The notes beneath the pieces were generated by a model. That model was not told where the DNA came from and did no database searches. It was given only the letters and a program-made list of their open reading frames with translations. DNA of 35,467 nt, from positions 1 to 35,467 of the forward strand of contig JAFYYP010000043.1 in NCBI GenBank assembly GCA_017557505.1, read 5' to 3'. The position numbers were made by a program, and so were the translations under genes. Below, one piece after another: positions 253 to 22,559 of this stretch. Within the stretch, counting starts at the first letter, position 1. Each line of letters begins with the position of its first letter. Source of the stretch: Bacillota bacterium. GTDB lineage: Bacteria > Bacillota > Clostridia > Peptostreptococcales > Anaerovoracaceae.

Positions 253-430
253 TTTATGCAGAAATGAATCGCTTCTGTGTTCCGAAGCGATTCGGCCAAG
301 AGGGAAGCCGGTTCAAGTCTGGCGCAGTCCCGCCACTGTAAGCGAAGAGCGAAGGCAAAAGCCATTGGGAAAACCCGAGAAGGCGCCCGAGCGAAGACGC
401 GCAAGCCAGGAGACCTGCACAGGAGAGCAA
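253..430 (+). ncRNA. Cobalamin riboswitch
   Basis: The sequence follows the cobalamin-element consensus. It has the core AGGGAAGCCGGTTCAAGTC near 300-318, then GCGCAGTCCCGCCACTGTAA near 322-341. The B12 box AAGCCAGGAGACCTGC is at 403-418. A closing P1 stem can form between TGCAG (257-261) and CTGCA (415-419). An extra perfect 8-bp hairpin, AATCGCTT/AAGCGATT, sits at 267-274/285-292. Elements of this family sense adenosyl- or other cobalamins and normally repress B12 synthesis, transport or B12-alternative genes in cis. A terminator follows at 476-503, consistent with transcriptional control. No ORF follows on the + strand before the next gene cluster, which is oriented the opposite way. Confidence 0.92.
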
Positions 431-475
431 GCAACCGGCGCGGAAATCGGAAAGGCTTATCAACGCAGTAAATAC

Positions 476-2542: not shown

Positions 2543-2577
2543 TATAGTATACTATAGGGGGGAATTGACCCGTCAAT
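2543..2577. promoter_or_regulatory. Divergent control region with two palindromes
   Basis: A perfect 14-bp palindrome TATAGTATACTATA (2543-2556) contains TATACT on both strands, a good -10 box in either direction. Eight bases further on, ATTGAC-CC-GTCAAT (2564-2577) is a perfect 6+6 inverted repeat, and its TTGACG on the - strand lies 19 bases from the -10. The arrangement suits a shared, regulated promoter for the leftward deglycase/phosphatase pair and the rightward kinase. The binding protein is unknown; the AraC-type regulator at 4299 is the obvious candidate. Confidence 0.5.
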
Positions 2578-4309
2578 GGTAAAAAACTGTACATCTCAGA
2601 AAAGATTGTGTGGAATGGTACGCATGGAGAAGAACGTGAACGGACGGTATCAGGAAAAACTTCAGAATCAGTTTCTGCGGAGTACGATACTGCCCATTCT
2701 GATTTGTTTCGCGGTCTTTGCTGCGGTTCTGCTGGCTTACAGCGAGGGCTTTTCCCGTTATAGCCTGAATGCCAGAGCCGTGCAGGCGCGCGACCAGGCG
2801 GATGCGATCTATGAGTATTATGTTTCTTACCTGTCAGATAAAGATGCACAGGAGGATATTAAGAAGTTTTATGGCGGGGAGATCAGCGAGCGGCTGATGA
2901 CCTACGCATTCCGGATGCGCTGCGAAGAAGCGCCTGTGAAAGCGGATCTGCTGTTATTGAACAACCACGGCGAACAGGTCTATTACAGCGGCAGGAGCGA
3001 TGTGACCGCACTTCATCCTGAGTATTACCGGGAAACGATTTTTCAATACCGGCCCATAGACAGTTCCGTCCTCAGCCGTTTCTACTATTTTCTCGGGGAT
3101 GCCTCCTGGATTCTGAACGCAGTGATATTTGACGATTCCGGCGATTCGATAGGGCAGGCATTTATCCTTTTGGGCGAAGCGGATCTGGAGCTTGCTTTTC
3201 ACCAGTTCAGCTACGAGATCGTGTTGGCGGACAATGGCGGATTGGCTGCGATGACCACGAATCACGATCTGCTGGATCATCGACATCGCCTGCTCTTTGC
3301 GAACCGGTCCTCTTACTCGGGAGACGATTCGTCCTATCTGGTCCGGACCGTGCCTCTGACCCGTCTGGATGCCAGCGTTTCCGCGCTTTCCGAACGGCCG
3401 AACTGGAGAGGTTACATTCTGCCGTACCTCGGCGCGCTTGCCGTGATCTTGGGATTGATCGCCTATCAGTCGACCCGTTTTGGCAGGGATCTTGCGTTGG
3501 ACAGCGCCAGGTCGCTTGAAAAACTGCATTCGGAGATGGCATCTGTTCAGAGAGATCCGGAATTACGGATCTCCGTCGAATCAGACGACGAGTTCAGCGA
3601 TATCGCCGGCGGAATCAATCGCATGCTGGATCACGTGCAGGAACTGAACCAGAAGAGCCTTGCGCTGGAACGCAGCAGAAACGATCTGGCTAAAGCTCAG
3701 ATCAAAGCGCAGTTCCATCCGCATTTTATCTACAATACGCTTGAGAGCATACGGTTTGCCATCCTGATGGACGATGACAAAAGAGCCAGCGATATGTTGT
3801 TGGCGCTTACGAGTCTGCTGCGTTATTCGGTGGAACATAACGATTTCATCAGTCTCGAAGAGGATATGGAGCATATCAGGGAATATCTGGACATCATGCG
3901 CTTTCGCTACGGCAACCGCTTCCGTTATCAGTTTGAGATCGAAGAGGACACGAAATCTTATCTTATTCCGCCGCTGTTCGTACAGCCGTTGTTGGAGAAC
4001 AGTCTGAAGTACGGTTTCGCAGGTCAGGATACCCTTGAATTGTCAGTTCAGACGTGGCTGGATGGGGAGGAGCTCCACATTCGCATCAGCGACAATGGCA
4101 TCGGTATGACAGAAGAGGAACTGACACTGCAGCGACGCCTTCTGGAGGAAGGCCAGTTCGCGGAGGGTCATTTCGGTATCGGTCTGGTGGCTCGCAGCCT
4201 GAAACTGCAATACGGAGAAGACAGTACCGTCGTACTTGACAGTGAATACGGAAAAGGACTAACTGTGGAGCTTACGCTTAAGAAGAAGGTGGACGGCGAT
4301 GGGATATAA
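2576..4309 (+). CDS. YesM-type sensor histidine kinase
   Basis: A membrane sensor of 577 residues from this start. The ATGs at 2615 and 2624 are as likely, since none has a clear ribosome binding site and the first transmembrane helix only begins near residue 36. Layout: helix at about 36-56, an extracellular sensor of about 220 residues, helix at about 280-297, a HAMP-like linker, the His_kinase domain with QFHPHFIYNTLESIRF (phospho-accepting His383), then an ATPase domain with PPLFVQPLLENSLKYGF and DNGIGM. This is the HPK7/YesM architecture, which pairs with YesN-type AraC regulators and usually controls sugar or oligosaccharide uptake genes. It overlaps the next gene by 11 bases. Together with the downstream transporter it should sense the transported compound outside the cell. 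Confidence 0.9.
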   Translation: MVKNCTSQKRLCGMVRMEKNVNGRYQEKLQNQFLRSTILPILICFAVFAAVLLAYSEGFSRYSLNARAVQARDQADAIYEYYVSYLSDKDAQEDIKKFYGGEISERLMTYAFRMRCEEAPVKADLLLLNNHGEQVYYSGRSDVTALHPEYYRETIFQYRPIDSSVLSRFYYFLGDASWILNAVIFDDSGDSIGQAFILLGEADLELAFHQFSYEIVLADNGGLAAMTTNHDLLDHRHRLLFANRSSYSGDDSSYLVRTVPLTRLDASVSALSERPNWRGYILPYLGALAVILGLIAYQSTRFGRDLALDSARSLEKLHSEMASVQRDPELRISVESDDEFSDIAGGINRMLDHVQELNQKSLALERSRNDLAKAQIKAQFHPHFIYNTLESIRFAILMDDDKRASDMLLALTSLLRYSVEHNDFISLEEDMEHIREYLDIMRFRYGNRFRYQFEIEEDTKSYLIPPLFVQPLLENSLKYGFAGQDTLELSVQTWLDGEELHIRISDNGIGMTEEELTLQRRLLEEGQFAEGHFGIGLVARSLKLQYGEDSTVVLDSEYGKGLTVELTLKKKVDGDGI

Positions 4310-5102
4310 GATGTTGATCATTGAAGATGAGGTCATGATCCGCAAAGGGCTTGCACTTTTCACGGACTGGAAAGCTCACGGCATCACGGAGGTCCGGGAG
4401 GCATCCAATGGTGCGGAAGGGCTGGAAATGATCAAATCGTTTCAGCCGGATATCGTGATCACGGACATCTGCATGCCTATACGTTCGGGCTTAGAGATCA
4501 TTGAAGAGACGATGGTGGAGTACAAGTACATTCCCATCATCATCAGCGGCTATTCAGATTTCGAGTATGCGCAGCAGGCCATCGAGTATGGGGTCACAGC
4601 GTATTTGCTGAAGCCGGTGGATACGGATAAGCTGCTGGAAGCTGTGGAAAAGGCGAAGGAAGAACTGCATAAGCAGAGTCTGCTCGAGGATTATCAGACA
4701 TCTTGCAACAACTTCATCAACAGCGGGTTCTTCGTCGAGAAACCGCAGCAGCAGTACGGTCCGATCGTTACGCAGATGCTGGATTATGTCCATGATCATT
4801 ATTCTGAGAAAATCACGCTGGGAATCATCGCAGAACATCTGCATTACAGCGAGAACTTCATTCTGCGCCGCTTCAAGGAAGAGGTGAAGGCGAACTTCTC
4901 GGAGTATCTGTCGCAATACCGGATCAGCCGGGCGATGGATCTGATGCGCACGTCGGAAAACACACTGTCCGAGATCGCCGCCCTCTGCGGTTTCTCGGAG
5001 TACAAGTATTTTCGCATAGTGTTCACCCGTTACGTGGGATGCACGCCAAAAGACTTTCAGCGCCTCGTTAAAGAGGATAGATTTTTCGCCAAGAAGCAAT
5101 AA
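4299..5102 (+). CDS. YesN-type response regulator with AraC DNA-binding domain
   Basis: 267 residues: an N-terminal receiver with acidic pocket IIEDE, phospho-acceptor Asp56 in DIVITDICMP and the conserved Lys in LLKPVD. A linker follows, then a C-terminal AraC/XylS double helix-turn-helix from about residue 155, with LSEIAALCGFSEYKYFRIVFTRYVGCTPKDF. AAGGTGG lies a few bases ahead of the chosen ATG; the internal ATG four codons later would also preserve the domain. It is translationally coupled to the kinase upstream. It most likely activates the ABC transporter genes that start 109 bases downstream, and possibly the divergent deglycase operon. Confidence 0.92.
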   Translation: MGYKMLIIEDEVMIRKGLALFTDWKAHGITEVREASNGAEGLEMIKSFQPDIVITDICMPIRSGLEIIEETMVEYKYIPIIISGYSDFEYAQQAIEYGVTAYLLKPVDTDKLLEAVEKAKEELHKQSLLEDYQTSCNNFINSGFFVEKPQQQYGPIVTQMLDYVHDHYSEKITLGIIAEHLHYSENFILRRFKEEVKANFSEYLSQYRISRAMDLMRTSENTLSEIAALCGFSEYKYFRIVFTRYVGCTPKDFQRLVKEDRFFAKKQ

Positions 5103-5155
5103 AATTCCCTCTGGGTTTTTCTTCTGATTCTATATACTTTAAGGTAACAAAGTGT

Positions 5156-5177
5156 CCTCGGACGTCTGATCCCGAGG
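5156..5177 (+). promoter_or_regulatory. Hairpin in the leader of the transporter genes
   Basis: CCTCGG (5156-5161) pairs with CCGAGG (5172-5177) around a 10-base loop. No T-run follows, so this is a leader structure, not a terminator. A TATACT at 5133-5138 just upstream is a possible -10 box with no recognisable -35, as expected for an activator-dependent promoter. Confidence 0.4.
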
Positions 5178-5211
5178 TATCAAGAGTTGTTATTAAGGAG
5201 GAAACATTACC

Positions 5212-6267
5212 ATGAAGAAGTTTCTTGCAATCCTGCTGGCCATGATGCTGGTCTTCAGCCTTGCTGCCTGCTCTAGCGGCGGAAACGAACCCGCTCCGGC
5301 AGATACCGGCGACGGAGGCGCAGAAGAGGAAGCCAAGCTGGTCGTTTACACCGCAGCTTCCGACGAACAGCTCGACGTTATCGTTCCCCTCTATGAGGAA
5401 ATGTACGGCGTCGAAGTCGAAGTCATCTCCGCAGGCACCGGCGAAATGCTGGCCCGTGCAGACTCCGAAAAGGCTGACCCCTACGGCGACCTGTTCCTGG
5501 GCGGCGGCGAATCCAACTTCAACGCCTATTCCCACCTGTTCCAGCCGTACGTGAGCTCCGAGGATCCCAACCTGATTCCCGAGTTCCGCAACAATACCGG
5601 ATGGATCACCTATTACTATCTGGACTGCCCGACCTTGCTCTATAACAATGATCTGATCGGCGATATCGAGATCAAGGGTTACGAGGATCTGCTCCAGCCC
5701 GAACTGAAGGGAAAGATTGCGATGCCGGATCCGACCGCATCTTCCAGCGCCATCATGCATGTGCAGACCATCCTGACCGACTTCGGCGGTTTGAACGTCA
5801 ATAACGAACAGGGCTGGGATTACCTGACCAAGCTGTATGAGAACATGGACGGCAAGATGGCTTCCGGTTCCTCTGCTGCTTACAAGTCAGTCGTTGACGG
5901 TGAAAATACTGTCGCGCTCACCTATGAAGAAGCATCTGTCCGCCTGAAGAGCCAGGGGGCAAACGTTACCATCGTATACATGGAGGAAGGCACCGTCTTT
6001 ACCCCGACCACGCTGGGCATCTTCAAGGACTGCAAGCATCTCGAGAATGCCAAGAAGTTTGTCGACCTCGTTCTGAGTCAGGAAGTTCAGAACATCCTGT
6101 GCAAGGATCTGTGCCTGCGTCCCGTCCGCGATGACGTCGATTATCCCGACTACTTCGCATCCGTGGCAGACGTTTATACCGTCGTACTCGACCAGGATTA
6201 CATCAACGAGCATAATCCTGAGCTGATCGAGCGCTGCAAGGACATCCAGACCACTATTGGCTTCTAG
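5212..6267 (+). CDS. ABC transporter substrate-binding lipoprotein, iron(III)/phospho-sugar type
   Basis: 351 residues. It starts with a lipoprotein signal peptide ending in the lipobox LAAC (Cys20), then a short Asp/Glu-rich linker and a periplasmic-binding fold beginning at KLVVYTAASDEQ. The LVVYTA start, the Glu-Thr-Gly-like SAGTGEMLAR segment and the TYEEAS segment match the AfuA/FbpA class (family 1 extracellular solute-binding), which includes Fe3+ binders and, in AfuA itself, hexose-phosphate binders. The ribosome binding site AAGGAGG precedes it. A neighbouring ATPase, a fused permease, a YesMN pair and a sugar-phosphate deglycase favour an organic phosphate over iron, but that is inference. 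The protein would be anchored on the outer face of the membrane. Confidence 0.85.
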   Translation: MKKFLAILLAMMLVFSLAACSSGGNEPAPADTGDGGAEEEAKLVVYTAASDEQLDVIVPLYEEMYGVEVEVISAGTGEMLARADSEKADPYGDLFLGGGESNFNAYSHLFQPYVSSEDPNLIPEFRNNTGWITYYYLDCPTLLYNNDLIGDIEIKGYEDLLQPELKGKIAMPDPTASSSAIMHVQTILTDFGGLNVNNEQGWDYLTKLYENMDGKMASGSSAAYKSVVDGENTVALTYEEASVRLKSQGANVTIVYMEEGTVFTPTTLGIFKDCKHLENAKKFVDLVLSQEVQNILCKDLCLRPVRDDVDYPDYFASVADVYTVVLDQDYINEHNPELIERCKDIQTTIGF

Positions 6268-13487: not shown

Positions 13488-14195
13488 ATGAGCACCGAAA
13501 CCGGCAGAAAGATCCTCATCATCGAGGACGAGAAGCCGATCTCCGACATCATCAAGTTCAATCTCGTGAAAGAAGGCTACGAAGTCGAGACCGCGTACGA
13601 CGGCCAGGAAGGACTGGACAAGGCCCGCAGCTGCGGCGCCCAGCTCATCCTCCTGGACATCATGCTTCCGATCATGAGCGGGTTTGAGGTGTGCAAAAGG
13701 ATCCGCGAGACCAGCGAGATCCCCATCATCATGCTGACCGCCAAGGAAGAGGAAGCCGATAAGGTCCTCGGCCTGGAGCTCGGCGCGGACGACTACATCA
13801 CGAAGCCGTTCGGCATGCGGGAACTGCTGGCGCGCATCAAGGCGAATCTGCGCCGCACCGAACTTCTGGACAGCAAGGCGGAGGAGCCTGCGGACGTTCA
13901 GGAGTTCGGCAAGCTGCAGATCGACATGAACCGCTACGAAGTCCGCAAGGACGGACAGCCTCTGGATCTGACGCTCCGCGAATTCGAGCTGCTGAAGTAT
14001 CTGGCGACGAGAGACGACAAGGTCTTTTCCAGAGAACAGCTGCTGGAAGACGTCTGGGGCTATGAGTATTACGGCGATATCCGCACCGTGGACGTCACGG
14101 TGCGCCGCCTGCGGGAAAAGCTGGAGGATGACCCCGGCGATCCGAAATACATCATCACGAAACGCGGCATAGGCTATTACTTCAGCAAGCAGTGA
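13488..14195 (+). CDS. walR: WalR-like response regulator (OmpR/PhoB family)
   Basis: 235 residues. The receiver has IIEDE, phospho-acceptor Asp57 (LILLDIMLP), Thr84 and Lys106. A winged-helix DNA-binding domain covers about 135-233, with LTLREFELLKYLATR and DVTVRRLREKLEDDP. Sequence and pairing match the WalR/YycF group, which in low-GC Gram-positives controls cell-wall hydrolase and division genes and is often essential. It starts 10 bases after the aldolase-like gene behind AGGAGG. A PhoP-type regulator is the main alternative, since the usual walH/walI/walJ neighbours are absent. Confidence 0.85.
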   Translation: MSTETGRKILIIEDEKPISDIIKFNLVKEGYEVETAYDGQEGLDKARSCGAQLILLDIMLPIMSGFEVCKRIRETSEIPIIMLTAKEEEADKVLGLELGADDYITKPFGMRELLARIKANLRRTELLDSKAEEPADVQEFGKLQIDMNRYEVRKDGQPLDLTLREFELLKYLATRDDKVFSREQLLEDVWGYEYYGDIRTVDVTVRRLREKLEDDPGDPKYIITKRGIGYYFSKQ

Positions 14196-18423: not shown

Positions 18424-19191
18424 ATGAAGTATAAACTCATACGCCACGCGACGGCCAAACTGGACTTCGGCGGGACCTGCTTCCTGCTGGATCCGTGGTT
18501 CGCCGCGAAGGGCAAAGGGCTCTCGTATGCAGGAAAAGAAAACAGCCCGCTGGTCGACATGCCCTGCAAAATGTGGGAGGCGGAGAGCCGCGCGGACTGC
18601 GTGCTGCTGTCGCACCTGCATTCGGATCACTTCGACAAAGAGGCTGCAGACTTCCTCGACAAAGACAGGCCGCTGTTCTTCCCCTCCTGTGACGCAGAAG
18701 CGCCGCTGCTTACCGGGTTCACCGACCTGCGGCCCGTGGACGGCACGGGACTGTATAACGAAGTCGCTTTCGAGCACGTCCCCGGGCGCCACGGCCACTC
18801 CGGAGACGTCCTGGCAGATATGGGGGAATCCGGCGGCTACGTCTTCATGGCGGCGGGAGAACCTACCGTTTACTGGACCGGCGACACGGTCTGGTGTGAC
18901 GAGGTGAAAAAGACCATCGAGGTCTACCAGCCGCAGGTGATCATCGTGCACGGCGGCGGTGCTTTGTGGAACGGCGAAGAGATCACTATGGGGATAGAAG
19001 ACGTGCTTGCAGTCTGTAAAGCGGCGCCCGGCGCGAAGATCATCGCGGTCCACTTCGAGACGACGGACCATGCGAGCGTCACCCGTTCAGACCTGAGGGC
19101 TGCGGCGGATGCCGCCGGGGTCAGCAGAGATCAGCTGCTCATCCCAGCAGACGGAGAAGAGATCGTCATCATGCAGGAAACTGCGTTTTAA
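18424..19191 (+). CDS. Metallo-beta-lactamase-fold hydrolase, UlaG-like
   Basis: 255 residues, cytosolic. The di-metal motif HLHSDHFD places His64, His66, Asp68 and His69. Later ligands are likely in VPGRHGHSG, WTGDTVW and the HFETTDH segment. The early DPWF motif is typical of the UlaG-like/UPF0173 branch, which includes L-ascorbate-6-phosphate lactonase and many uncharacterised hydrolases. AAGGAGC lies about 10 bases ahead of the ATG. It starts a three-gene unit with the HD-domain protein and the permease-kinase. Substrate unknown. Confidence 0.85.
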   Translation: MKYKLIRHATAKLDFGGTCFLLDPWFAAKGKGLSYAGKENSPLVDMPCKMWEAESRADCVLLSHLHSDHFDKEAADFLDKDRPLFFPSCDAEAPLLTGFTDLRPVDGTGLYNEVAFEHVPGRHGHSGDVLADMGESGGYVFMAAGEPTVYWTGDTVWCDEVKKTIEVYQPQVIIVHGGGALWNGEEITMGIEDVLAVCKAAPGAKIIAVHFETTDHASVTRSDLRAAADAAGVSRDQLLIPADGEEIVIMQETAF

Positions 19192-19201
19192 GGAGGCTGA
19201 C

Positions 19202-19756
19202 ATGTTTACACCGACACTGGAAGAAGCAAGAAAACTGATGGAAGAACATAACCAGGAGGCATTCCACCGCCAGCACGCGGAGACGGTCTCCGGGGTCATG
19301 GGATATTTCGCGAAGGAATTCGACCCCGAGCGCGAGGAATTCTGGCGCTGCGTGGGCATGCTCCACGACCTGGACTACGAGGAGTTCCCCGAAGAGCACT
19401 GCGTCAAGGAAGAGCAGTGGCTGAAAGATATGGACTGCGACCCCGCCATGATCCACGCGATCTGCGCGCACGGCTGGGGCCTGACCGGCATCACCTGCCA
19501 GCCCGAGAGCCAGATGGAAAAGCTCCTGTTCGCCTCCGACGAACTGACCGGCTTGATCGGCGCGGCCGCGCTCATGCGGCCGTCGAAGTCCTGCGCGGAC
19601 ATGGAACTCAAATCCCTGAAGAAGAAGTATAAAGATAAGAAATTCGCAGCCGGCTGCAGCCGGGAAGTCATCCAGCAGGGCGCCGAAATGCTCGGCTGGG
19701 AGCTGGACGAGCTGCTGCAGAAGACGCTGGACGCGATGAAGAGCCTGGAAGGATAA
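19202..19756 (+). CDS. HD-domain phosphohydrolase-like protein
   Basis: 184 residues from the ATG at 19202, which follows AAGGAGGCTGAC; an upstream in-frame ATG lies inside the previous gene. It has the HD pattern: His in [11 protein letters not shown], the HD pair in [12 protein letters not shown] (His55-Asp56) and AICAHGWG further on, then a conserved Asp in [18 protein letters not shown]. This is the small HD-hydrolase type found across anaerobes with unproven substrate. It lies 10 bases after the UlaG-like gene and 7 bases before the permease-kinase fusion, so the three are probably co-expressed. Confidence 0.8.
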
Positions 19757-19763
19757 ACCCGAT

Positions 19764-22559
19764 ATGGATCACCTGATCGACAATAAAGCACTGGACCGGT
19801 ATCTCTCGCCCGTCGACGTCTGGGCGATGGCCTTCGGCTGCATGATCGGCTGGGGCGCCTTTGTGATGCCCGGAACGACGTTCCTGCCCGTCGCAGGGCC
19901 GGCCGGTACGATCCTGGCCCTTCTCATCGGCATGGCCGTGATGCTCATCATCGGCATGTGCACGTCTTATCTGATGCGTAAAAGCCCGCAGACGGGTGGT
20001 ATCTACTCATATACGAAAGAGGCGTTCGGACGCGATCACGCGTTCCTGTGTGCCTGGTTTTTATGCCTGTCGTATCTGACCGTCGTATTCCTGAACGGCA
20101 GCGCGCTGTTCGTGGTCATCCGCACGGTCTTCGGCGACGGCATCCAGACAGGTGCTTCGTACACGGTCGCGGGCAGCGAGATCTATCTGCGCGAGGTCGG
20201 TACGTCCATCCTGGCCCTTGCGGGCGTCGGGATCCTGTTCATCGCGGCAAAACCCGTGCTGCAGAAACTGCACACGATCCTGTCGCTCATCCTGGCCGCA
20301 GGCGTCGTCGCGACGGCTGTTCTCTGCCTGCCGCACCATCTGTCTTTCGGCGATCTGAATATGTACGGAACGCAGAACGTCGGTCCGGGCTTCGGTATCT
20401 TCACCCTCGTGATCCTGGCACCGTGGGCCTACGTCGGCTTCGAAGTCATCACGTTCGATACGGCTCACTTCAAATTCCCTGTGAAAAAAGCCGGCGTCAT
20501 CCTGCTCACGTCGGTGCTGCTCGCGGCTTTCGCGTACACCGCGATGACCCTCGTGAGCGTCACAGTCCATCCGGACGGCTTCGCCTCCTGGGGCGAATAC
20601 ATCGCTCATCTGAACGAACTCGGCGGCGTCGCATCCGTTCCCACGTTCTATGCGGCAAAGACCATCCTGGGCACAGGCGGCCTCGTGCTGATCGCGGTCT
20701 CGGCCTTTGCTGCCATCCTGACCGGCATCATCGGAGCCTACCGCGCCATGGTGCGCGTGCTGTCCACCATGGCCGAAGACCGCATTCTGTCCGATTTCTT
20801 CTCCAAAACGACGTACAGCATCCTGTTCATCATGCTGCTGTCCATCCTCATCTCGCTTTTAGGCCGCAACACGCTCATCTGGTTCGTGGACCTGACGGCC
20901 TTCGGCGCGATCGTCGCGTACGGCTATACCTGCGCGGCGGCAAGCAAGAGGGCGAAAGTCGAAAACGACGGAAAGATCGTTGTCCTCGGGCGTCTGGGCG
21001 CCTGCATCGCCGCCCTGTTCGCCATCGTGCAGCTCGTGCCGCATCTGGCGGCCATCGACGCGATGGGCAGCGAAGCGTTCCTTCTGTTGTCGCTTTGGTG
21101 CTTCCTTGGTTTCGTGTTCTACTGGCAGACGATCCGGCGCAGCACGCTGGCTGAGTACAGCGGCATGTCCACGTCAGGCACCGTCCTGTTCGCCCTGCTC
21201 GTGTACGCGGCGCTTCTGTGGGTCGCGAAACAGCTGTACGCCAAGGACGGCATGGAAGCGGTACGCACCGCGCTCGTGAAAGACGGCATCGTTTTGATGC
21301 TCATCATTTTCGTCGGTCTGGGGGTCATGCTGTATATCCAGAACGTCGTGCGCAAGAAGCACGAGGCGACGGAACGCGAAAAGATCCGCGCGGTCGAAGG
21401 AAGCCTCGCGAAGAGCCAGTTCCTGTTCAACATGTCGCACGACATCCGCACGCCCATGAACGCGATCATCGGCTACACGAACCTCGCGCGCGAAGAAGGA
21501 TCCCCGGAAGTCGTGAGGGAATACCTGGACAAGATCGATACTTCGAGCAAGCACCTGCTCGACCTGATCAACGATATCCTGGAGATGAGCCGCATCGAAA
21601 GCGGCAAGATAGAACTCTCCTATGAGCCGTACGACCTTTGCGCACTGTTCGAGGAGATCGGCCACCTGTTCGAAGAGCAGATGAAGCAAAAGGGCCTGAC
21701 GTTCGAGGTCCACGATTCGCAGGTCGCGGACCGTCTGGTCTGGTGCGATAAGAAAAACATTAACCGCGTGCTTCTGAACGTCATCAGCAACGCGTACAAG
21801 TTCACGCCCGAAGGCGGATCGATCACGGCGACCCTGTATGAGGCGGGAAGCGACAACGGCTACGGCTCTTACGAACTGCGCGTGCAGGATACCGGCATCG
21901 GCATGTCCAAGGAATTCGTGGAGAAGATGTTCAACGCGTTCGAGCGCGAGCGCACGTCCACGGTCAGCGGCATCGAAGGAACAGGTCTGGGCCTTGCCAT
22001 CACGAAGAAGCTCATCGATCTGATGGGCGGCACGATCGAGGTCGTCACCTCTCCGGGCAGCGGCACGCAGATGATCATGCGGCTGAAGCTGAAGCTCGCG
22101 ACCGAAGAAGACATGCCAAAGCCGACCGCTGAACAGGAGGAAGAGATCGATTTCTCGCAGAAGAAGCTGCTTCTCGTCGAGGATAATCTCGTGAACAAGG
22201 AGATCGCCCGCATGATCCTGGAGCAGAAGGGCTTTACGGTGGATACTGCGGAGAACGGGCAGGAGGCGGTGGACAAAGTCGCATCGTCCGAACCCGGCAC
22301 GTACGACGCCATCCTGATGGACATCCAGATGCCCGTCATGGACGGCTATACCGCAGCCAGGCACATCCGCGCGCTGGACGATCCTCGCCTGGCGAATATC
22401 CCGATCCTGGCCATGACCGCGAACGCGTTCCACGAAGACGTGCAGGCGGCACTGGACGCCGGCATGCAGGCGCACATCGCCAAACCCATCGATATCAACG
22501 TGCTGATGGACGAATTGAAGACCGCGCTGTCTTGCAATTCCAACGGCAGAGATATATAA
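19764..22559 (+). CDS. APC amino-acid permease fused to histidine kinase and receiver
   Basis: A single 931-residue frame. Residues 1-460 are an APC-superfamily permease with about 12 helices. TM1 carries the unwound substrate motif [17 protein letters not shown] (24-40), and TM2 is followed by [23 protein letters not shown] (67-89). Two further helices (about 470-490 and 507-527) lead into a short charged linker. The kinase follows: HisKA with [17 protein letters not shown] (phospho-acceptor His559), ATPase with Asn676, DTGIGM (709-714) and GTGLGL (739-744). The C-terminal receiver (801-920) has VEDN, Asp853 and Lys907. All kinase and receiver catalytic residues are intact and the frame has no break. 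It would sit in the membrane with the kinase inside, linking amino-acid binding or transport to phosphorelay. There is no PAS or HAMP, and no DNA-binding regulator adjoins it. Substrate and output are unknown. Confidence 0.92.

Follow-up and report, generated by a model that had tools for sequence, protein, structure and literature searches.

A gene in which an APC-type amino-acid permease and a hybrid histidine kinase form a single chain of 931 amino acids (aa) lies on a 35,467-nucleotide stretch of DNA from a Bacillota bacterium of the family Anaerovoracaceae (hereafter the window; GenBank contig JAFYYP010000043.1). The window is the entire contig C29 of a draft genome (2.2 Mb, 56 contigs, 87% complete). 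The protein combines a 12-helix APC module of the CAT-like kind, two further helices and an intact hybrid histidine kinase with its receiver, and it belongs to a widespread family in gut bacteria. We propose, with a probability of roughly 0.58, that this fusion is an amino-acid-sensing transceptor that feeds an Hpt phosphorelay onto enzymes of cyclic di-GMP (c-di-GMP).

The frame opens with an ATG and runs through 931 codons with zero stops. Pfam placed its domains in the order that had been predicted from the DNA, a permease continuing unbroken into HisKA, ATPase and receiver domains (Table 1), with scores over the cut-offs for HisKA (76 bits), HATPase_c (89.1 bits) and Response_reg (87.1 bits). 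A hydropathy profile, with peaks merged by eye, gave twelve permease helices followed by two extra peaks ahead of the kinase. No PAS or HAMP family was matched anywhere in the protein (Pfam, E<=0.001), which agrees with the original prediction that two added helices stand in place of these domains. The region between permease and HisKA, which holds these two hydrophobic helices, had zero Pfam matches, with the limit that the presence of a STAC model in Pfam was unchecked. The G+C content at third codon positions was level along the frame (0.82 in the permease, 0.79 in the linker, 0.84 in the kinase and 0.82 in the receiver), and the permease part had a single match in the window's genome (E<=0.001).

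A scan of public genomes with the permease-plus-linker module as query returned at least 520 relatives among at least 595 pattern matches, and the best 80 loci were kept. The permease-kinase order recurred across genomes: judged by the longest permease frame at each locus, 72 of these 80 carried permease and kinase in a single frame, comprising 61 permease-histidine kinase (HK)-receiver (REC) proteins, 9 permease-HK proteins (several cut or frame-broken) and 2 permease-HK-REC-REC proteins. The other eight were one permease-GGDEF, one permease-GGDEF-REC-GGDEF-EAL, one permease-REC and five permeases only (one cut by a contig end). Nearly all of the 80 came from metagenome-assembled genomes, and many titles mention ruminant gut sites; the organism names in the titles (Clostridia, Oscillospiraceae, Lachnospiraceae, Selenomonadaceae and others) are unsafe. 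Across the 61 full-length fusions, His559, Asn672/676, Asp709-x-Gly711-x-Gly713, Gly739/741, Asp807, Asp853 and Lys907 were invariant, bearing out the claim that all catalytic residues of kinase and receiver are there.

Closer to the window, at least 26 of 296 genomes of its family had a module-matching frame of at least 700 aa among the matches listed, a count in which not all frames were Pfam-checked and from which two permease-ATP-grasp frames, and a further long frame with the permease as its sole Pfam domain, are omitted. The module is rare in wider even samples, where 7 of 391 class-level and 4 of 398 phylum-level genomes had frames of at least 700 aa at E<=1e-80. Within the genus, four of eight genomes matched the module at E<=1e-20, two with a kinase and two with GGDEF fused to it. 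The fusion of a sister genome (G001), encoded at L039:11491-14271 (+), was 79% identical to that of the window over its full length.

Several members depart from the common form. Six have a broken frame (L056, L067, L081, L085, L107 and L117), for which either real decay or sequencing error may account. Three proteins (L093:3521-5194, L095:5968-7656 and L096:5965-7677) keep the two extra helices and end ahead of the kinase; zero kinase genes were found in the fetched stretches of these loci, a possible kinase loss. In genomes G1044 and G723, permease-kinase fusions without a receiver stand in tandem pairs (L259, L260, L266 and L267); in the two of them that were checked, Pfam did not find HisKA and scored HATPase_c weakly or moderately. 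At L048, L050 and L221, an unfused permease of the same group has as neighbours a stand-alone histidine kinase and a response regulator of the sigma-54 type, an arrangement that resembles the fusion in separate pieces and has a different output.

The closest solved relatives of the permease module are the CAT-type SLC7 proteins CAT1 (9uat; profile E-value 1.6e-27) and GkApcT (5oqt; 3.7e-21), both plain transporters. In GkApcT the ligand is contacted by transmembrane helix 1 (TM1) plus Phe231, Ala232 and Ile234 of TM6 (PMC5803215). The fusion residues aligned with these three and with GkApcT Asp237 are Trp221, Ala222, Val224 and Glu227, respectively. By analogy with GkApcT, Gly29-Trp30-Gly31 would be the unwound substrate-site motif of TM1, and the G-x-G and aromatic-A-x-x-G-F motifs of TM1 and TM6 match those expected of a broken-helix APC permease. 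Gly29-Trp30-Gly31, Pro220-Trp221-Ala222, Gly225-Phe226 and Tyr258 were invariant in the 61 full-length fusions, so that the TM1 motif is indeed intact. Among the 88 kinase fusions of a larger set, 82 kept Ala222 (Met in 6) and 86 kept Phe226 (Tyr in 2). The idea that the fusion has lost its substrate site was not supported, as the TM1 and TM6 motifs are invariant in the 61 full-length proteins.

Fused and solo permeases differed at and just after the end of the TM6 motif. Position 227 was Asp in 30 of 32 solo permeases and Glu in 87 of 105 fused ones, with Asp in the remaining 18; position 230 was Pro in 30/32 solo versus 0/105 fused proteins, and position 231 was Gln in 31/32 versus 5/105. 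Elsewhere, Asp occupied position 91 in 105/105 fused versus 0/32 solo proteins, and position 339 in 95/105 versus 1/32. Taken together with the conserved ligand-site residues, the differences at positions 227, 230 and 231 suggest that the ligand site is kept and that the adjacent part of TM6 is specific to fused proteins. Such a TM6 form fits a receptor, while not being proof that transport is lost. GkApcT has a TM5 lysine that the fusion lacks, besides a TM6 Asp where the fusion has Glu. Loss of this lysine was rejected as a mark of receptors because solo relatives lack it too (present in 0/32 solo and 1/105 fused proteins, in a TM5 alignment to GkApcT that is uncertain by about two positions).

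These data bear on the strongest competing explanation, that the protein is a working transporter engaged mainly in amino-acid import, whose attached kinase reports transport flux and not binding, a view put forward for CbrA. Conservation of the TM1 and TM6 ligand motifs would suit a transporter, and CbrA itself is reported to import histidine using the proton gradient (PMC13022988). However, the fused proteins diverge from solo permeases in TM6 just beyond the site, and GkApcT lost its function when Asp237, the residue aligned with Glu227, was made Ala (PMC5803215). We regard a mainly importing protein as unlikely, though clearly the best placed of the alternatives.

The proposed connection with an Hpt relay and c-di-GMP enzymes draws on the gene neighbourhoods of the fusions. 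Of the 72 permease-kinase loci, 35 had an Hpt, REC-GGDEF-EAL or HK-REC-REC gene in the fetched stretch, many stretches being cut by contig ends. Among the 37 loci with at least 13 kb, REC-GGDEF-EAL was found at 13, Hpt at 9 and HK-REC-REC at 16, with at least one of the three at 21; at 15 of the 37, a hybrid kinase adjoined the fusion on the same strand. None of these partners was present in 20 random stretches or at 20 solo-permease loci (21/37 versus 0/20, Fisher p 7e-6; 14/22 when one row was kept per 72% identity cluster). The random stretches, of 13.6 kb each, came from 13 genomes carrying the family, which are not the same genome set as that of the counted fusion loci, and two of the solo-permease loci were shorter than the rest (8.2 and 7.5 kb). 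The genomes with G numbers, such as G001, overlap in part with those of the 80 best loci, so counts from the two sets are not summed. At least one partner was found at 12/18 loci of near versus 9/19 of far relatives. When any hybrid kinase or GGDEF/EAL gene was counted too, the figures were 25/37 for fusions, 2/20 for random stretches and 0/20 for solo permeases.

Simple pattern tests were applied to the partner proteins. In REC-GGDEF-EAL proteins, the GGDEF adjacent to EAL was degenerate, and the EAL and DDFG motifs were there in 32/32; an extra GGDEF was intact in 2/7. A motif of the H-x-[LFIV]-[KR] type was found in 27 of 31 Hpt domains.

The sister genome places the candidate components side by side. 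One strand carries in succession GGDEF, REC-GGDEF-EAL, Hpt, sensor-HK-REC-REC and APC-HK-REC genes, with the Hpt gene overlapping the preceding REC-GGDEF-EAL gene. After the fusion come a metallo-hydrolase gene and, further on, homologues of the window's serS (96% identical over 346 aa) and of the window gene that was originally labelled HD (89% identical). The shared genes around the fusion indicate the same neighbourhood in both genomes, with the phosphorelay genes adjoining the fusion in the sister only.

The window's genome also encodes a hybrid kinase, an Hpt protein and a REC-GGDEF-EAL protein, the latter two on separate contigs from the fusion. On contig C30, a sensor-HK-REC-REC gene (1037 aa; 62.5% identical over 1009 aa to that of the sister) stands directly upstream of a REC-GGDEF-EAL-GGDEF gene at L052:2616-5819 (-), whose product has a degenerate first GGDEF, the EAL and DDFG motifs and an intact extra GGDEF at its terminus. 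The only Hpt match in the genome (E<=0.001) is on contig C15, at L179:8040-8384 (-), and a third hybrid kinase, PAS-PAS-HK-REC-REC, is on contig C20. The early suggestion that the receiver or a distant phosphotransfer protein may carry the output fits both this Hpt on another contig and the Hpt in the fusion cluster of the sister. The three GGDEF matches of the genome are the two domains of the C30 protein and a 160-aa protein at locus L202 that lies behind the sole c-di-GMP-I riboswitch match of the genome.

Such a riboswitch directly 5' of a small GGDEF gene was seen at L202:11957-12604 (-), L043:8618-9308 (-) and L044:4842-5533 (+), and in genomes G002 and G005 it stands between an APC-GGDEF gene and the small GGDEF gene. 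Riboswitch and small GGDEF gene possibly form a feedback loop. Two other candidates were discarded: Spo0A as a target, with zero Spo0A_C matches in the eight genus genomes, and a PilZ effector, with zero matches in the window's genome.

Several observations weigh against the proposed relay. The 35-kb contig of the window holds no Hpt, REC-GGDEF-EAL or HK-REC-REC partner; 16 of the 37 loci with at least 13 kb carry none of the three in the fetched stretch; and 4 of the 8 genus genomes lack the module at E<=1e-20, some of them being only 75-79% complete. Since the window's genome is 87% complete, additional Hpt or receiver proteins may be missed. A REC-ANTAR gene on contig C24, at L281:3927-4508 (-), an orphan with no kinase found beside it, encodes another possible target in the same genome.

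Accordingly, an alternative is that the kinase signals elsewhere, either to the orphan REC-ANTAR regulator or no further than its own receiver or partner hybrid kinases, and that the c-di-GMP neighbours are incidental. The lone REC-ANTAR gene, the location of the Hpt and GGDEF-EAL genes on different contigs from the fusion and the 16 loci lacking all partners are in its favour. Against these stand the union of all partners in a single cluster of the sister genome, neighbourhood counts above both controls, the fusion of the permease module itself to c-di-GMP enzymes and the failure to find Spo0A_C, the other expected clostridial target, in the eight genus genomes. On balance we judge signalling to another target improbable, and less probable than a working transporter.

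The permease module occurs with several outputs. It is fused to GGDEF in the same genus (L043 and L044), to GGDEF-REC-GGDEF-EAL, giving proteins 1327 to 1484 aa long (L076, L239, L240 and L241), to HK-REC-REC (L109) and to HD_5 (L248 and L257), the last of which we take to resemble HD-GYP phosphodiesterases. In permease fusions with no EAL behind the GGDEF, the GGDEF was intact in 18/19 by a simple pattern test. Thinning at 72% identity reduced 144 permease domains to 103, and the tree built from these grouped 67 HK, 16 GGDEF and 2 HD_5 fusions and one kinase-less 14-helix row on a branch with an SH-aLRT value of 100, to the exclusion of all 16 solo permeases and an ATP-grasp fusion; the method was a quick one and one solo row is very long, so such support values are to be read with caution. 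Output labels change seven times in all across the tree, which, read without a root, does not tell gain from loss. Similar permeases fused to ATP-grasp (ATPgrasp_ST) were seen at L242:4725-7508 (-) and L243:5083-7953 (-), the former outside the sensor branch.

A broader proposal, to which we give an even chance, is that a general-purpose 'APC sensor' membrane domain evolved, perhaps a single time, from the APC permease fold and that gut bacteria now join it to HD_5 and GGDEF-EAL assemblies as well as to diguanylate cyclases and hybrid kinases, such that amino acids in the transporter site would drive a whole c-di-GMP network.

Beyond the anatomy of the fusion, we infer its ligand, any transport and the phosphotransfer as follows. 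An extracellular amino acid would bind to (or pass through) the permease and shift it, and helices 13 and 14 would relay the movement to the kinase. His559 would then be phosphorylated and the phosphate handed to Asp853 of the protein's own receiver, from there to the free Hpt and on to the receiver of the GGDEF-EAL protein. The conserved HK-REC-REC partner kinase probably feeds the same Hpt. With a degenerate GGDEF and an intact EAL in the GGDEF-EAL protein of the family, the pathway would as a rule control the breakdown of c-di-GMP; the C30 protein, with its additional intact terminal GGDEF, may both break down and make c-di-GMP. In the permease-GGDEF sister proteins, the same kind of signal would be coupled directly to c-di-GMP synthesis.

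The permease part could also be a mere membrane anchor or dimer scaffold, with the signal read elsewhere, for instance in the cytoplasm or by the loop that connects helices 13 and 14. In the alignment, this extracytoplasmic loop is longer in some relatives. In the closest relatives of the window's protein, however, it is short and shows little conservation, and few columns of the permease part are conserved as strongly as the TM1 and TM6 ligand-site motifs, so that we consider a simple anchor a long shot. Lastly, although the window is one contig of a 56-contig draft, an assembly or frame-join artefact can be rejected, because permease and kinase share an unbroken frame in many different assemblies (72 of the 80 best loci) and in the sister over the full length of the protein.

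Table 1 Features of the fusion gene and its two upstream neighbours (positions in the window).
Feature	Positions	Strand	Basis
APC permease-hybrid histidine kinase fusion gene, 931 aa	19764..22559	+	single open frame, Pfam domains, same-frame relatives
AA_permease_2 match of APC module, aa 14-421	19803..21026	+	Pfam 58.9 bits, cut-off 27
TM1 Gly29-Trp30-Gly31	19848..19856	+	invariant in 61 fusions; alignment to 5oqt
TM6 motif P-W-A-Y-V-G-F-E, aa 220-227	20421..20444	+	aligned with Phe231-Ala232-x-Ile234-x-x-Asp237 of GkApcT
Added transmembrane helices 13 and 14, about aa 466-531	21159..21356	+	hydropathy peaks aa 470-488, 507-525
HisKA domain, aa 549-614; phospho-acceptor His559 at 21438-21440	21408..21605	+	Pfam; His559 invariant
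HATPase_c domain, aa 662-777	21747..22094	+	Pfam; N and G boxes invariant
Receiver domain, aa 803-918; phospho-acceptor Asp853 at 22320-22322	22170..22517	+	Pfam; Asp853 invariant
Metallo-beta-lactamase-fold hydrolase, neighbour	18424..19191	+	Pfam Lactamase_B_2; homologue directly behind fusion in sister genome
Gene labelled HD in original prediction, neighbour	19202..19756	+	89% identical homologue near fusion in sister genome

On its own strand, the fusion gene is separated from its neighbours by gaps of 7 bp upstream and 61 bp downstream, and from these short gaps its co-transcription with the HD-labelled and metallo-hydrolase genes is plausible. The HD label itself could not be confirmed, as the gene had zero Pfam or NCBIfam matches at E<=0.001. 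Homologues of both genes, which may or may not be parts of the system, are near the fusion in the sister genome; among the other loci compared, the metallo-hydrolase was matched only at one fusion locus (L120), and the HD-labelled gene only in one random control stretch (L188) and at one solo-permease locus (L269). No DNA-binding regulator adjoins the fusion, as had been noted: the window's other receiver genes, at 4299-5102 (AraC type) and 13488-14195 (OmpR type), are each next to their own kinase. A sensor kinase (His_kinase family, HAMP), an AraC-type response regulator and a solute-binding protein are encoded in a row at 2576-6267 (+), and a cobalamin riboswitch lies at 260-436 (+) (Rfam RF00174, 104 bits).

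Few bacterial chains that join a transporter to a kinase are known, and the fusion is the APC counterpart of the SLC5 (CbrA-like) transporter-kinases. CbrA is called a rare transceptor in a 2026 preprint (PMC13022988), and SLC5-STAC histidine kinases have been described (PMC7096432, PMC5715377, PMC9100948). Like the fusion, they carry an amino-acid or solute transporter of LeuT-type fold in one chain with a histidine kinase, and they are thought to link nutrient sensing to signalling, as we propose here. Whereas CbrA has an SLC5 transporter, STAC and PAS domains and the DNA-binding partner CbrB, the fusion has an APC transporter, two extra helices and a receiver, and its likely partners are Hpt and c-di-GMP enzymes. 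As Pfam (E<=0.001) gave only two AA_permease families in the membrane part and no SLC5 domain, the fusion falls outside the SLC5-STAC family.

Other systems share single traits with the fusion. Ks-Amt5, an ammonium transporter-histidine kinase of an anammox bacterium (PMC5764959), also uses a membrane transporter domain joined to a histidine kinase as sensor and transducer, but its transporter family is unrelated and its signal is ammonium. LysP, an amino-acid permease of the APC superfamily, gates the regulator CadC in trans (PMC12764776), and is thus a permease that also controls a signalling protein, as we propose for the fusion; LysP and CadC, however, are two separate proteins, and the output is a membrane transcription activator with no kinase. 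Receptors of the 5TMR/S-component fold likewise combine a transporter-like membrane domain in modular fashion with HK, REC, GGDEF and EAL, and a 5TMR sensor fold joined to an NRAMP-like domain was noted, but the fold differs and the available part of that paper mentions no APC permease (PMC11109136). In the titles and abstract openings of the open-licence papers listed by our searches, we found no description of APC-kinase, APC-GGDEF or APC-HD fusions, in line with the original prediction, to which no described APC version was known. The permease-kinase fusion family is therefore apparently undescribed.

If the proposal holds, these outputs, for which integral-membrane sensor domains are already known, would have an APC equivalent in the 'APC sensor', and gut Clostridia and their neighbours would gain a candidate amino-acid input to c-di-GMP. 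A large family built on a different transporter, with matched solo permeases and several outputs, would offer a natural experiment on the change from transporter to receptor, for which the differences between fused and solo proteins in and after TM6 point to candidate residues.

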